From Arthrobacter sp. Marseille-P9274 (GTDB lineage: Bacteria; Actinomycetota; Actinomycetes; Actinomycetales; Micrococcaceae): a stretch of DNA of 64,000 bases. This document shows positions 30,805 to 35,870 of this stretch, piece by piece (the stretch's first letter is position 1; each line of letters begins with the position of its first letter). The position numbers and the translations under genes were made by a program. Below the pieces are notes generated by a model. That model searched no databases, had not been told where the DNA came from, and worked only from the letters and a program-made list of their open reading frames with translations. The stretch spans positions 1,462,033 to 1,526,032 of the forward strand of contig NZ_CAMPOV010000001.1 in the NCBI RefSeq assembly GCF_946892675.1, written 5' to 3'.

Positions 30805-33192
30805 ATGAGCATGGACACGAGGACGACGTCAGAGTCGCCAGGACTGCCCGTTGCCGACACCCACGACCTGATCCGGGTAGAGGGCGCGCGCGTGAACAAC
30901 CTCAAAGACGTCAGCGTCGAGATTCCCAAGCGACGCCTGACGGTGTTCACCGGTGTTTCGGGCTCGGGCAAGAGCTCGCTGGTCTTCGGCACGATCGCCG
31001 CGGAGTCGCAGCGGATGATCAATGAGACCTACAGCGCGTTCGTCCAAGGCTTTATGCCGACGCTCGCGCGGCCCGAGGTCGACCTGCTCGAAGGATTGAC
31101 GACGGCGATCATCGTGGACCAGGAGCGGATGGGCGCCAACCCCCGTTCTACCGTCGGCACGGCCACCGACGCCAACGCGCTGCTGCGCATCCTCTTCAGC
31201 CGGCTCGGCGACCCGCACATCGGTTCGCCGAACGCCTACTCCTTCAACGTCCCCTCGGTGTCGGCCAGCGGCGCCATCACCGTCGAACGCGGCGGGAAGA
31301 CCAAGGCCGAGAAGGCCACGTTCCACCGGCTCGGCGGCATGTGCCCGCGCTGCGAGGGAATGGGTTCGGTGAGCGACTTCGACCTGTCGGCGCTGTACGA
31401 CGACACCAAGACCCTCGCCGAGGGCGCGCTGACGGTGCCCGGGTACAGCATGGACGGCTGGTATGGCAGGATCTTCAGCGGCGCCGGGCTGCCGATGGAC
31501 AAGCCCATCGCGAACTTCAGCAAGAGGGAGTTGCACAAGCTGCTCTACAGCGAGCCGGAGAAGATCAAGGTCGAGGGCGTAAACCTGACGTACGAGGGCC
31601 TGATCCCCAAGATCCAGAAGTCCATGCTCTCCAAGGACCGCGAGGCAATGCAGCCGCACATCCGGGCCTTCGTCGACCGGGCGATCACCTTCACCACCTG
31701 CCCTGACTGCGCCGGCACCCGTCTTGCCCAGGAGGCGCTGTCCTCCAAGATCCGCGGGAAGAACATCGCCGACGTCTGCGCGATGCAGATCAGCGACCTG
31801 GCCGGATGGGTACGGGACCTCGATGAGCCCTCGGTGGCGCCGCTGCTGAAGGGGCTGCGGCACCTGCTCGATTCCTTCACGGAGATCGGCCTGGGCTACC
31901 TGTCCCTGGACCGGCCGGCAGGCACACTGTCCGGGGGAGAGGCGCAGCGGACCAAGATGATCCGCCACCTCGGTTCATCACTCACGGACGTGACCTATGT
32001 GTTCGACGAGCCGACGATCGGCCTGCATCCCCACGACATCCAGCGGATGAACAACCTGCTCCTGCAGCTGCGGGACAAGGGCAATACGGTGCTCGTGGTC
32101 GAACACAAGCCGGAAACCATCGCCATCGCCGACCACGTCGTCGACCTCGGTCCGGCCGCTGGCACCGGCGGCGGCAGCGTGTGTTTCGAGGGCAGCGTCG
32201 AGGGGCTGCGCGGAAGCGACACCATCACCGGTCGCCACCTCGGCGACACGACGAGCCCCAAGAAAACGGTCCGCCAGTCCTCCGGGGCGCTCGAGATCCG
32301 CGGCGCGGCAACGCACAACCTCAAGGGTGTCGACGTCGACGTCCCCCTCGGGGTGTTGTGCGTCGTCACCGGTGTGGCGGGCTCCGGCAAGAGCTCCCTC
32401 ATCCACGGCTCGGTAGCCCGCCGGCCGGGCGTCGTCGTGATCGACCAGAGCGCGATCAAGGGCTCTCGGCGCAGCAATCCCGCCACGTACAGCGGCCTTC
32501 TCGAGCCAATCCGCAAAGCATTCGCCAAGGCCAACGGTGTTAAGCCGGCTCTCTTCAGCTCGAATTCCGAGGGCGCTTGCCCCACATGCAACGGTGCGGG
32601 CGTAATCTACACCGAGCTGGGTGTCATGGCGACGGTCGAATCTACCTGCGAAGAGTGCGAGGGCAAGCGGTTCCAGGCTGCGGTGCTGGACTACACGCTC
32701 GGGGGCCGGAACATTGCCGAGGTGCTGGCGATGCCGGTGGCCGAAGCCGAGGAATTCTTCGGTACCGGGGAGGCACGCACACCCGCAGCCCACAAGATCC
32801 TCGACCGCCTCCACGACGTGGGACTCGGTTACCTCACCCTCGGCCAGCCCCTGACCACGCTGTCCGGTGGTGAGCGCCAGCGGCTCAAGCTGGCCACCCA
32901 GATGGCCGAGAAGGGTGATGTCTATGTCCTGGACGAGCCGACGACAGGCCTGCATCTCGCCGACGTCGAGCAGCTGCTCGGCCTGCTCGACCGGCTCGTC
33001 GATTCCGGCAAGTCGGTCATAGTGATCGAGCATCACCAGGCGGTCATGGCGCATGCCGACTGGATCATCGATCTCGGACCGGGGGCCGGCCACGACGGCG
33101 GCAGGGTCGTCTTCGAGGGCACGCCCAGTGAGCTCGTCCACGACCGGTCCACACTCACGGGTGAGCACCTCGCCGCGTACGTCGGCCGCTGA
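30805..33192 (+). CDS. UvrA-like ABC ATPase (excinuclease subunit A paralogue)
   Basis: This 795-residue protein has two ABC cassettes of the UvrA class. Cassette 1 has Walker A 'GVSGSGKSS' at 50-58, zinc motifs 'CPRCEGMG' and 'CPDCAGTR', signature 'LSGGEAQR' and Walker B 'VFDEPTIGLHP'. Cassette 2 has Walker A 'GVAGSGKSS', 'CPTCNGAG' with 'CEECEGKR', signature 'LSGGERQR' and 'VLDEPTTGLH'. It is shorter than housekeeping UvrA (about 950), lacking the UvrB-binding insertion, and so fits the UvrA2/DrrC type linked to drug or DNA-adduct resistance. It follows the VOC gene by 147 bp in the same orientation. Confidence 0.93.
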   Translation: MSMDTRTTSESPGLPVADTHDLIRVEGARVNNLKDVSVEIPKRRLTVFTGVSGSGKSSLVFGTIAAESQRMINETYSAFVQGFMPTLARPEVDLLEGLTTAIIVDQERMGANPRSTVGTATDANALLRILFSRLGDPHIGSPNAYSFNVPSVSASGAITVERGGKTKAEKATFHRLGGMCPRCEGMGSVSDFDLSALYDDTKTLAEGALTVPGYSMDGWYGRIFSGAGLPMDKPIANFSKRELHKLLYSEPEKIKVEGVNLTYEGLIPKIQKSMLSKDREAMQPHIRAFVDRAITFTTCPDCAGTRLAQEALSSKIRGKNIADVCAMQISDLAGWVRDLDEPSVAPLLKGLRHLLDSFTEIGLGYLSLDRPAGTLSGGEAQRTKMIRHLGSSLTDVTYVFDEPTIGLHPHDIQRMNNLLLQLRDKGNTVLVVEHKPETIAIADHVVDLGPAAGTGGGSVCFEGSVEGLRGSDTITGRHLGDTTSPKKTVRQSSGALEIRGAATHNLKGVDVDVPLGVLCVVTGVAGSGKSSLIHGSVARRPGVVVIDQSAIKGSRRSNPATYSGLLEPIRKAFAKANGVKPALFSSNSEGACPTCNGAGVIYTELGVMATVESTCEECEGKRFQAAVLDYTLGGRNIAEVLAMPVAEAEEFFGTGEARTPAAHKILDRLHDVGLGYLTLGQPLTTLSGGERQRLKLATQMAEKGDVYVLDEPTTGLHLADVEQLLGLLDRLVDSGKSVIVIEHHQAVMAHADWIIDLGPGAGHDGGRVVFEGTPSELVHDRSTLTGEHLAAYVGR

Positions 33193-33311
33193 GGCACGGC
33201 CGGGAGAGGGCGGACGAAACCCCTCCCGGCCTCGCCCTTCACTTCGGCGACAGCAGCAGCCGGAGTCTTCGAGGGGGAGCGGAGTGCCGATTACCGCGGC
33301 CCTCGCGGGCC

Positions 33312-33533
33312 TTAAGGCGTGTTGCCAAACACTCCGGCATGGTCGTGAAGATCTTGGATGGTGTTACGAATACGGTCATCGAATGACTTCCCACGCCCGT
33401 ACAGCGCGAACATTCGTGGCTGGGCGGCAACGGGCGGGAACTGGAACTGGCGGACGAGCATGCAGAGTGCCTCCAGTCCGTGTTGCCGGAGCCGCTGATC
33501 AAGCGGAGGGAATTCTCGGCCCTTGGGTAAGAA
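33312..33533 (-). pseudogene. Possible gene remnant beside the dif region
   Basis: A stretch of 73 codons ending in TAA (33312-33314) reads as protein-like sequence with 'LDQRLRQHGLEALCMLVRQF' and, nearer the stop, 'RGKSFDDRIRNTIQDLHDHA'. The frame is closed upstream by a TAA that lies inside the left XerD-arm repeat. The only ATG is internal (33461). No family is recognised. It may be the 3' end of a gene cut by a recombination event, or chance. Confidence 0.25.
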
Positions 33534-33545
33534 TTATGTCAAGTA
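33533..33545 (+). repeat. Direct repeat of the XerD arm, left copy
   Basis: ATTATGTCAAGTA occurs here and again at 34003-34015, exactly 470 bp apart. The right copy is the XerD half of the dif-like site. The left copy lacks a matching XerC arm (CGGCCCTTGGG at 33517-33527 instead). Confidence 0.8.
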
Positions 33546-33986
33546 AACCGTTTCTGTCGGCCGCACCGGCGGTGCCATGAGGCGAGGGCCCGTCCACTCG
33601 GCATCGATCATGCCCGGTTGCTACCAGAGGCTCCGCACCACATTGCCGCCAGCATGGGTGGCTGACCGCAGGCAATCGAAGCCGATAATTTCCCGGCGGG
33701 GCCACGGCCAGCGGGTTACCTCGAACCGACATATTCGAACAGCAAGCCGCACAGCGGCGTGAGTGCATGCATCCGCACAGGAACGATGGCTGGTCTTCAC
33801 CAAACCGCTCCAGCGCAAGACGCTGGCCCTAGCGGTGGTCGAGCTAGCTGCGGTTCAGCTCATCCAAACACAGCTTCCTGTGACTACATCAGATGCAGGT
33901 CAGTTGATCCGAATATGGCGACCCGCGACGAGCCAACACGGTGACGTGTCAGCGCACAGAACCCTGCCTCCCAGGCCCTTCTCCAG

Positions 33987-34014
33987 TTCGCCGATAATCT
34001 ACATTATGTCAAGT
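33987..34014 (+). other. dif: dif-like XerC/XerD recombination site
   Basis: The site has the 28-bp dif architecture: an 11-bp XerC arm TTCGCCGATAA, a 6-bp centre TCTACA and an 11-bp XerD arm TTATGTCAAGT. The arm ends ATAA and TTATGT match E. coli dif at the same positions, and the XerD arm is the better conserved half, as usual. It lies in a gene-free stretch, and gene orientation changes from mostly plus to mostly minus around it. In cells, XerCD and FtsK resolve chromosome dimers at dif in the terminus. An integrated mobile element using a dif-like site is the alternative. Confidence 0.82.
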
Positions 34015-34218
34015 AGCGTTTTGATTGCCTCCTGATCGACAGGATCAACCCCTCCTCCGCCCACGCCTCAGGGACAGCACCAATGGCACCTGCTTGTCGG
34101 TCAACGCCTCGGTCCATTCGCACTCAATGCCGCACAGAACGATCCAGCACCCGGTTCTAGAGGGCTCGGGCGCTCGTGTCCACGGGCCGCATTGCGGCTG
34201 CCGAGCTATCCTCGGCAG

Positions 34219-35436
34219 ATGACCGCTCCTTCCGCCCTCATTTCAGGGGCGAGCATCGCCGGACCGGCTCTCGCTTTCTGGCTTGCACGCTGCGGCTGGC
34301 GCACGACGGTCGTCGAGCGGGCATCGGCGCTGCGCACGGGCGGGCAGAACGTCGACCTCAAGGGTGCCGGACTGGAGGTCATCGGCCGCATGGGATTGGA
34401 GGAGCAGGTCCGCGCTGCGCACACTGGAGAGCTGGGCTTGGAGTTTGTCGGGGCACGCGGCCAGGTTTTGGCTCGTTTTCCGGTCGGAGACACCAGCGGC
34501 ATGAGCCTGACCGCCGAGGTGGAGATTCTGCGCGGTGATCTCGCTGAACTGCTGGTATCGGCGACGGGCAACAGCACCGAGTACCGTTTCGGGGACCGGA
34601 TCACCGGCGTGAAGCAGGAAGACGGGGCCGCTCTGGTCTCGTTCGACCGCGCCCCCGCAGAAAGATTCGACCTCGTCGTCGCCGCCGACGGCATCGGATC
34701 CGACACCCGCCGACTGGTCTTCGGCGACGAGCCGTCCGTCCGGTCCCTGGGAGTGGAAGCGACTTGGGCGACGATCCCGCGGACCGTTTCGGACACCAAC
34801 TGGTGGCGCTGGTTCAATGCCCCCGGAGGCACGATATCCCTGCGCCCGGACCGCTACGGCACCATGCGGGTGCTCGTTACCCGCACGCTGTCCCGGGCAG
34901 AGCGTCACGACCCCGCCGACCAGCGGACCCCGGATCAACAGCGCTCCCTGCTGCGATGGACCTTTGCCGGCGCAGGTTGGGAAGCCGACCGCGTGCTCGA
35001 GGCGCTGGAGGACGTCGATGACCTGTACTTCGAGGCGATTGGGCAAGTGCGCGCTGCCCGATGGTCGTCCGGACCTGTCGTGCTGCTCGGTGACGCCGCC
35101 TCTTGCCCCTCGCCGGTGAGTGGCATGGGAACGACCCTCGCCGTCGTCGGCGCCTATGTGCTGGCCGGAGAGATCGCCTCGCACGCGGCCCTGGGCGAAG
35201 CCCTGAGCGGATACGAGCGGATCATGCGACCGTGGGCCGAGCAGGTGCAGAAACTTCCGCCGGGAACGCCCAGGATCGCCAACCCCATTTCCCGGCCAGG
35301 TGTCACCATTCTGCAGGCCGCAATTCGTGCCGCCGGCACCCCGTTGGTACGCGGCATCGCGGCGCGTCTGGGCCGGGGCCGCAACCCGACGGATGCCTTC
35401 GCACTCCCCGATTACGCCCACTTCGGAGCGCCGTGA
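34219..35436 (+). CDS. FAD-dependent monooxygenase (TetX/PHBH-like)
   Basis: This 405-residue flavoprotein of the class A hydroxylase group has the Rossmann dinucleotide motif 'ISGASIAGPALAFWLARCGW' (about 7-26) followed by the ribose-binding acid in 'VVER', the 'DG' motif 'DLVVAADGIGSDTRR' near 153-167 and the second FAD motif 'VVLLGDAASCPSPVSGMG' near 287-304. It would hydroxylate a small molecule using NAD(P)H and oxygen; the substrate is unknown. ATG 34219 is preferred over an upstream GTG/ATG because the Rossmann strand starts soon after it. It is the first gene right of the dif-like site. Confidence 0.9.
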   Translation: MTAPSALISGASIAGPALAFWLARCGWRTTVVERASALRTGGQNVDLKGAGLEVIGRMGLEEQVRAAHTGELGLEFVGARGQVLARFPVGDTSGMSLTAEVEILRGDLAELLVSATGNSTEYRFGDRITGVKQEDGAALVSFDRAPAERFDLVVAADGIGSDTRRLVFGDEPSVRSLGVEATWATIPRTVSDTNWWRWFNAPGGTISLRPDRYGTMRVLVTRTLSRAERHDPADQRTPDQQRSLLRWTFAGAGWEADRVLEALEDVDDLYFEAIGQVRAARWSSGPVVLLGDAASCPSPVSGMGTTLAVVGAYVLAGEIASHAALGEALSGYERIMRPWAEQVQKLPPGTPRIANPISRPGVTILQAAIRAAGTPLVRGIAARLGRGRNPTDAFALPDYAHFGAP

Positions 35437-35492: not shown

Positions 35493-35870
35493 ATGACATC
35501 CCGCATCAGCGAACTGGTCCTCGACTGCGCCGACCCCGAACGCCTTGCGAGGTTCTGGTGCGGGGTCCTCGGCTACGTGGAACTGGACCGGGAGGACGGT
35601 GCGATCGAGATCGGGCCGGCCGAAGCCGGATTCGGCGGACTGCAGCCCACCATCATCCTGAGCCCCGGCAGCGACCCCCGGACCGGTAAGCTCCCCCTGC
35701 ACATCGACGTCAACCCCGTGGACCGGGACCAGGACGCCGAACTGGAACGGCTGCTCGCGCTCGGCGCCCGTCCGGCCGACGTCGGGCAGACCGGCGACGA
35801 GCAGTGGCACGTCCTGGCCGACCCTGAGGGCAACGAGTTCTGCCTCCTGCGCAAGCGGCTAGAGCCCTAG
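35493..35870 (+). CDS. VOC family protein
   Basis: This 125-residue protein is a second vicinal oxygen chelate protein, of the single-repeat-pair type common in actinobacteria: 'ISELVLDCADPERLARFWCGVLGY' at the N-terminus, 'LHIDVNPVDRDQDAELERLLALGARP' in the middle and 'HVLADPEGNEFCLL' at the end. The metal-binding residues are incomplete, so it may bind rather than convert a ligand. A TACACT hexamer (35480-35485) ends 7 nt before the ATG, without a ribosome site, suggesting a leaderless message separate from the upstream monooxygenase. Confidence 0.88.
   Translation: MTSRISELVLDCADPERLARFWCGVLGYVELDREDGAIEIGPAEAGFGGLQPTIILSPGSDPRTGKLPLHIDVNPVDRDQDAELERLLALGARPADVGQTGDEQWHVLADPEGNEFCLLRKRLEP

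Follow-up and report, generated by a model that had tools for sequence, protein, structure and literature searches.

A dif site, candidate XerD half-sites and a polar GGGGGAG motif at the terminus of an Arthrobacter chromosome

Introduction

A 28-bp sequence in a gap between two genes of an Arthrobacter chromosome raises two questions: is it the site at which chromosome dimers are resolved and the replichores meet, and does the DNA around it carry further signals for the proteins that would act there? The window, by which we mean the whole stretch of 64,000 nucleotides analyzed, corresponds to C1:1462033-1526032 of its own assembly (G000). An earlier note had described the 28-mer as a dif-like site in a gene-poor stretch and had proposed that the window spans the replication terminus.

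Results

The 28-mer has the layout of dif and occurs once

The site was recognized from sequence match, conservation and published dif seeds, and its parts from their layout compared with the published dif seeds:

33987..34014, plus strand: chromosomal dif, TTCGCCGATAATCTACATTATGTCAAGT, 28 bp
33987..33997, plus strand: XerC arm, TTCGCCGATAA
33998..34003, plus strand: 6-bp centre, TCTACA
34004..34014, plus strand: XerD arm, TTATGTCAAGT

The arrangement of an 11-bp arm, a 6-bp centre and an 11-bp arm is present exactly as the earlier note described it, and the 28 bp with 11-bp XerC arm, 6-bp centre and 11-bp XerD arm agree with the dif of the phylum. The assignment of one arm to XerC and the other to XerD is our assumption, taken over from E. 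coli dif. The 28-mer is matched once in the window, whereas 100 shuffles give no match (≤3 mismatches). Furthermore, it is a single match in the 4.78 Mb, 16-contig assembly at the same tolerance, so that the several copies which the earlier note had held to speak against dif are not found there.

Conservation in relatives, which the same note had anticipated, is indeed observed: 9 of the 10 genomes of the genus, our own included, carry the 28-mer once each (≤3 mismatches). Across the family it is found in 171 of 295 genomes, again one each, and in none of the other 124 (≤3 mismatches), and the dif core GCCGATAATNNACATTATGTNAA (≤2 mismatches) is found in 283 of the 295 and in 32 of 32 genera; this looser core pattern gives two to three sites in some family genomes. 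Since the dnaA of our genome lies on contig C2 and dif on C1, the distance between origin and dif was measured only in relatives, namely the four with dnaA and dif on one contig, where it amounts to 53.9% (G003), 53.0% (G001), 52.2% (G139) and 53.4% (G069) of the contig. The recombination genes are present on C1: a XerD gene scoring over the curated cut-off, a XerC homologue whose best match of 325.4 bits is just under the cut-off of 335.15, and a gene encoding FtsK-gamma.

That the 28-mer is a chance match, or a plasmid or phage Xer site rather than chromosomal dif, is extremely improbable. Relatives do carry secondary dif-like sites with other centres, but the 28-mer is unique in its own assembly and conserved as a single copy in relatives, the site is far from dnaA in those relatives, motif polarity flips at it (see below), and TTNNCCGATAATNNACATTATGTCAAGT has no match in the viral_contigs collection. 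A dif-integrating phage was rejected on the basis of that search, in which no viral contig with TTNNCCGATAATNNACATTATGTCAAGT was found.

The secondary sites (for example with GCCGATAATGGAGATTATGTCAA) lie at G001:C3:152003, G004:C43:37017, G008:C43:5613 and elsewhere; G001:C3, a contig of 245 kb, is plasmid-like, and GGGGGAG shows a suggestive switch near its dif-like site, in small numbers. At the end of dif in G003 (L161 from 9250 on), there is a short tandem duplication, TCAAGTTGGGCATTGGCTAA standing there twice.

Gene orientation changes at dif, and GC skew is too weak to decide

The genes on either side of dif are as follows.

30805..33192, plus strand: left neighbour, UvrA-like ABC ATPase (688.8 bits, short of the 729.8 required for UvrA)
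34192..35436, plus strand: right neighbour, FAD-binding monooxygenase

The gene-poor character claimed for this stretch holds, with dif lying within about 1 kb that has no convincing gene. A 175-aa open reading frame at 33053-33580 overlaps the left part of the gap and a half-site introduced below, and it matches no Pfam family; no RNA family scores above the gathering score in the gap. The switch of gene strand at dif that had been claimed is real when long open reading frames are considered in 20 kb windows. Just left of dif these amount to 12.5 kb on the plus and 3.8 kb on the minus strand, and just right of it to 4.3 kb and 11.0 kb, respectively. Over 57 windows the plus-strand share of long-ORF bases falls from 58% left of dif to 42% right of it, and the change at dif is sharp. 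GC skew, which the earlier note had put forward as a check, was measured in the same sample, 57 windows of 20 kb on C1 covering 1.14 of 2.84 Mb; it is weak and noisy, with means of -0.005 (28 windows on the left) and -0.012 (29 on the right), and was set aside as a terminus marker in this genome, being too weak and giving no clean switch in these windows.

GGGGGAG points toward dif on both arms and flips at it

All 7- to 9-mers were counted in 700 bp on each side of dif at 97 family loci, and two strand-specific words emerged, TTATGTCAA and GGGGGAG, the latter with its reverse complement across dif. Within 200 kb of dif in our own genome, 107 copies of GGGGGAG read toward dif and 2 away, and it is the most polar of the 3630 7-mers that lean toward dif and occur at least 30 times; among the 15284 octamers of a sample within 600 kb, CGGGGGAG ranks first for polarity. 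Permutations of GGGGGAG are far less polar in the same 200 kb (toward/away 30/23 for GGGAGGG and 21/14 for GAGGGGG), while GGGGAGG, which overlaps GGGGGAG, gives 64/18. In the window, seven copies lie on the plus and none on the minus strand left of dif, against none on the plus and 12 on the minus strand right of it. The flip is bracketed by -727 and +1691 bp of dif, and the nearest copies, both reading toward dif, are KOPS-like candidates:

33273..33279, plus strand: nearest GGGGGAG left of dif
35691..35697, minus strand: nearest GGGGGAG right of dif

The same polarity extends beyond this genome. Within 3 kb of dif at the 97 family loci, the toward/away counts are 117/0 on the left and 137/0 on the right, and among the 119 loci listed from the genome_contigs collection they are 136/5 and 187/0. 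These loci include Nocardia, Rhodococcus, Amycolatopsis, Frankia, Geodermatophilus, Microbacterium, Nocardiopsis and Kribbella; the set comprises at least 119 loci, nearly all Actinomycetota by title, with one titled as an unverified Bacillus sp., and overlaps the family set in organisms (L203/G278, L219/G006, L266/G157, L267/G047, L274/G168 and L276/G040). In five relatives CGGGGGAG occurs 371-516 times per genome, as against 80-155 for the backwards pattern. Its plus-strand share is 195/371 (52.6%) in G139 and 219/411 (53.3%) in G069, resembling the dnaA-dif distances of these genomes (52.2 and 53.4%), and 234/406 (57.6%) in G003, compared with a distance of 53.9%.

A polarity switch at dif is the hallmark of KOPS, and KOPS is GGGNAGGG in Vibrio cholerae and Enterobacteria (PMC13342612). 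Orientation toward dif on both arms, a switch at dif and over-representation, the features by which a KOPS is judged, are all found for GGGGGAG. Within 200 kb of dif, GGGNAGGG, the KOPS of E. coli, has no useful polarity in our genome, and it was set aside on this ground as an FtsK guide here. Since the polarity around dif is the same across Actinomycetota, GGGGGAG is a strong candidate for the FtsK-orienting sequence, as judged from its distribution. No paper linking GGGGGAG with FtsK was found in the literature searched, from which most subscription papers were absent.

The proposal that the window spans the replication terminus is thus supported by the polarity flip of GGGGGAG together with the gene-strand switch at dif; the polar motif settles the terminus reading, and its flip at dif is the sharpest proof. 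Positions 33987-34014 are almost certainly dif, at which dimers of a circular actinobacterial chromosome are resolved and where its replichores meet.

One stretch of the contig departs from this pattern. On C1 up to about 0.9 Mb (L040-L053 and L315-L321), GGGGGAG has the opposite polarity from that in the remainder of the left replichore, with a switch between about 0.90 and 0.94 Mb, which needs a large inversion or an assembly misjoin.

Orphan copies of the XerD arm stand on one side of dif

A further and unexpected element of the locus, to which the other strand-specific word (TTATGTCAA) points and which the earlier note missed, is a second copy of the XerD arm, which we call an orphan half-site:

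33533..33544, plus strand: orphan XerD half-site, ATTATGTCAAGT, which repeats the XerD arm exactly with one base more (11-bp arm at 33534-33544)

It lies 453 bp from the start of dif, on the XerC side and in the same orientation, with no recognizable XerC arm beside it. In the own assembly TTATGTCAAST occurs exactly twice, as the XerD arm of dif and as the orphan, which share the plus strand and are separated by 470 bp. In seven genomes searched whole the exact sequence is rare, with one to five copies per genome.

Orphans were then defined by the pattern TTATGT[CA]A[AG] upstream of dif (XerC side), within 700 bp and on the same strand. Among the 97 family loci, a non-random set of which 39 were listed first by searches and 58 chosen across genera (L161 and L162 being excluded because they duplicate G003 and G001), 59 such occurrences are found at 38 loci, and the remaining 59 loci have none within 700 bp. 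The control positions of the 97 loci give three on the other strand upstream and three and one downstream, and 20 dinucleotide shuffles give a mean of 0.15 matches. One orphan is present at 25 of the 38 loci, two at eight, three at two and four at three, mostly at about 220-620 bp from dif on the XerC side (288 to 453 bp in the own genus), and the consensus around them shows no XerC arm. By genus, orphans are found in 9/10 loci of g1 (own), 9/20 of g9, 5/5 of g22, 13/13 of g32, 1/2 of g13 and 1/3 of g24, and in none of the other 19 genera sampled, so that 6 of 25 are positive. The tenth g1 genome, G001, is counted as a miss because its orphan lies at -3596, behind an insertion.

In the genome_contigs collection, 14 of 107 loci (those of the 119 listed that have at least 600 bp upstream) carry an orphan, with 21 same-strand matches against one on the other strand and none downstream. 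By title, ten of the 14 are Micrococcaceae (Arthrobacter, Pseudarthrobacter, Paeniglutamicibacter and Citricoccus), and four are MAGs, two of Micrococcales (L214 and L279), one of Acidimicrobiales (L260) and one of Actinomycetota (L297). The 12 loci dropped include L266 and L276 with upstream orphans and L228 with a downstream one. In Arthrobacter sp. 11W110_air (L203), four XerD half-sites stand at -378, -326, -274 and -222 from dif, an exact spacing of 52 bp, or about five helical turns, with unrelated DNA between them. In g32, the nearest orphan directly follows GGGGGA in 11 of 13 genomes (all but L036 and L037), a fusion that is not seen in the genus of the window.

Two other half-sites were observed. 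On the XerD side of dif, a same-strand TTATGTCAACT half-site stands at the nearly constant distance of +192 to +203 in L154 and L155 (genus g7) and in L228 (Sinomonas cellulolyticus). Between the orphan and dif in the window, a XerC-like half-site, GAAGCCGATAA, lies on the same strand at 33678-33688; it was left as chance and not taken as part of an array, being absent from the matching place in the other loci compared.

In one genus the nearest orphan is conserved as strongly as dif

With all 13 genomes of g32 aligned, the flank has a mean conservation of 0.605, and the window containing the nearest orphan reaches 0.986, level with dif, and that of the second 0.937. In g9 the orphan stands at 1.000 against a mean of 0.794, but this value arises partly by selection, because the alignment comprises eight of 20 genomes picked for having TTATGTCAAG within 560 bp upstream, and the alignment says little on selective constraint because other flank windows reach 0.989 and 0.977. 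The flank aligns poorly in the own genus, where the orphan window is only slightly higher than the flank (0.626 versus 0.550).

In G001:C1, an element (L162:6166-9408) lies flush against the XerC arm of chromosomal dif and encodes a tyrosine recombinase, an HTH protein and a third gene of 492 aa without a Pfam match. Sixteen matches to its right end, a stretch of 176 bp, are spread over 13 of 290 family genomes (ends also in L323-L337); by their coordinates three of these matches are at chromosomal dif (G001, G069 and G109), and a GCCGATAA-like arm is found at the expected place after the element end in 16 of 16, L331, L332 and L329 being the weakest. We read it as an element of Micrococcaceae that integrates next to dif without disrupting it.

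The orphans might in principle be left over from mobile elements or from former copies of dif (att half-sites), and the insertion of integrase elements flush against dif and dif-like sites in Micrococcaceae, together with the one element found between orphan and dif in G001, would fit such an origin. Remnants should decay, however, and the g32 orphans match dif in conservation and belong to the most conserved windows of the flank; furthermore, orphans nearly always point the same way, and the DNA between the members of the L203 array is unrelated. We regard this origin as very unlikely.

A copy of the 11-mer upstream of ftsZ

In six of seven genomes searched whole (loci L163-L168), ACTTGACATAACTNTAAC upstream of a gene read as ftsZ contains the XerD-arm 11-mer in exact reverse complement, with FtsZ confirmed by Pfam at the four of these six that were scanned (L163, L165, L167 and L168). 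Here ACTTGACATAACTNTAAC is probably a promoter, and its coincidence with the XerD arm is curious. Far-away exact half-sites on the minus strand were rejected as further XerD sites, one of them sitting upstream of ftsZ in these six of seven genomes.

The promoter-like setting of the 11-mer upstream of ftsZ gives some ground for reading the orphans at dif likewise, as the site of another protein or as a promoter -35 element (TTGACA on the reverse strand) whose resemblance to the XerD arm is incidental. None of 49 orphans with TTGACA, however, has TANNNT at a spacer of 16-18 bp, and the orphans gather beside dif, share one orientation and form arrays with as many as four members, which makes this reading quite unlikely.

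Discussion

The dif of this window is itself ordinary and expected, and the established Xer mechanism predicts how it would work. XerC would bind the left arm and XerD the right arm, and the two dif copies of a dimeric chromosome would synapse. FtsK would be guided to dif by polar sequences, for which GGGGGAG is the most likely candidate here, and would activate XerD, whereupon strand exchange would begin.

What the orphans do is a separate matter. Somewhat more probably than not, they would bind XerD alone and serve a second, non-recombining function of XerD at the terminus, such as removal of SMC or assembly of XerD with FtsK; this is an inference.

The leading specific role is SMC unloading, because XerD has been reported to unload SMC near the terminus of Bacillus subtilis. 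The orphans would accordingly be XerD-only sites at which XerD unloads SMC, as in that species, a reading that we consider possible rather than likely. In B. subtilis, XerD is described as a sequence-specific SMC unloader near the terminus (PMC12322038, PMC8357415, PMC11898615), and Hi-C data on large replicons point to SMC unloading at dif as a more widespread phenomenon (PMC13342612). In line with such a role, orphans resemble the XerD arm and not the XerC arm, adjoin dif, share a sequence that is rare in its exact form, and in g32 are conserved well above their surroundings. On the other hand, only a minority of the sampled genera have them, and a one-sided layout in a single orientation is not obviously needed for unloading.

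Alternatively, the orphans might aid recombination at dif, as an accessory stretch that shapes synapsis or marks the meeting of FtsK and XerD, in the manner of cer and psi. Nearly all orphans are on the XerC side in one orientation, the nearest one directly follows GGGGGA in most g32 genomes, and the accessory DNA of cer is about 180 bp long (PMC5357621). But the known accessory sites described there bind PepA with ArgR or ArcA and no extra recombinase (PMC5357621), the distance to dif here is about 220 to 620 bp, and 3.6 kb in the one genome with an insertion, and the fusion to GGGGGA is absent from the genus of the window. We regard an accessory role as unlikely.

Tentatively, and preferring a second function of XerD for the orphans, we picture a compound terminus of the Arthrobacter type. 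It may consist of dif plus one-sided, same-orientation half-sites for XerD only, one to four in number and, for the most part in one genus, joined directly to the motif that would orient FtsK, at which XerD might do a second, non-recombining job (SMC unloading or FtsK-XerD loading), with GGGGGAG acting as an FtsK-orienting sequence throughout Actinomycetota. No paper on orphan XerD half-sites at dif was recognized in the literature searched, which left most subscription papers outside. 

As an FtsK guide, GGGGGAG is a specific candidate for a phylum in which GGGNAGGG has no useful polarity, at any rate in this genome. Where GC skew gives too little signal, the motif also allows termini to be located simply and inverted or misjoined assemblies to be recognized. 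The orphans offer a small, testable handle on the work of XerD at the terminus besides recombination, and they bear on whether the link between XerD and SMC known from Bacillus extends to Actinomycetota.

Comparison with known systems

In B. subtilis, Karaboja et al. reportedly found in 2021 that the terminus holds XerD-specific SMC-unloading sites besides dif. The likeness is that here, too, XerD-arm sequence stands in the terminus apart from dif. The difference is that the orphans here, known from sequence, lie within 0.7 kb of dif, mainly on one side of it and in one orientation.

The accessory sequences of the plasmid sites cer and psi share with this locus the presence of conserved DNA beside a Xer core site, but they bind PepA, ArgR or ArcA, whereas the repeated unit here is the XerD arm (PMC5357621). 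For the polar motif the closest counterpart is KOPS: GGGGGAG is likewise rich in G and oriented toward dif on either arm, with a flip at the site, and differs in its letters, GGGGGAG here and GGGNAGGG there (PMC13342612).

The dif itself is close to those predicted in Actinobacteria. The predicted dif of Frankia alni is CACGCCGATAATGCACATTATGTCAAGT (Kono et al. 2011, PMC3025954); it has the same 28-bp layout, with CGCCGATAAT..ACATTATGTCAAGT common to both, and differs from the dif of the window in its first two bases and in two bases of the centre (PMC3025954). Relative to the dif/XerCD system of Actinobacteria (PMC3025954), the difference at this locus is the orphan XerD half-sites that stand nearby in the same orientation.
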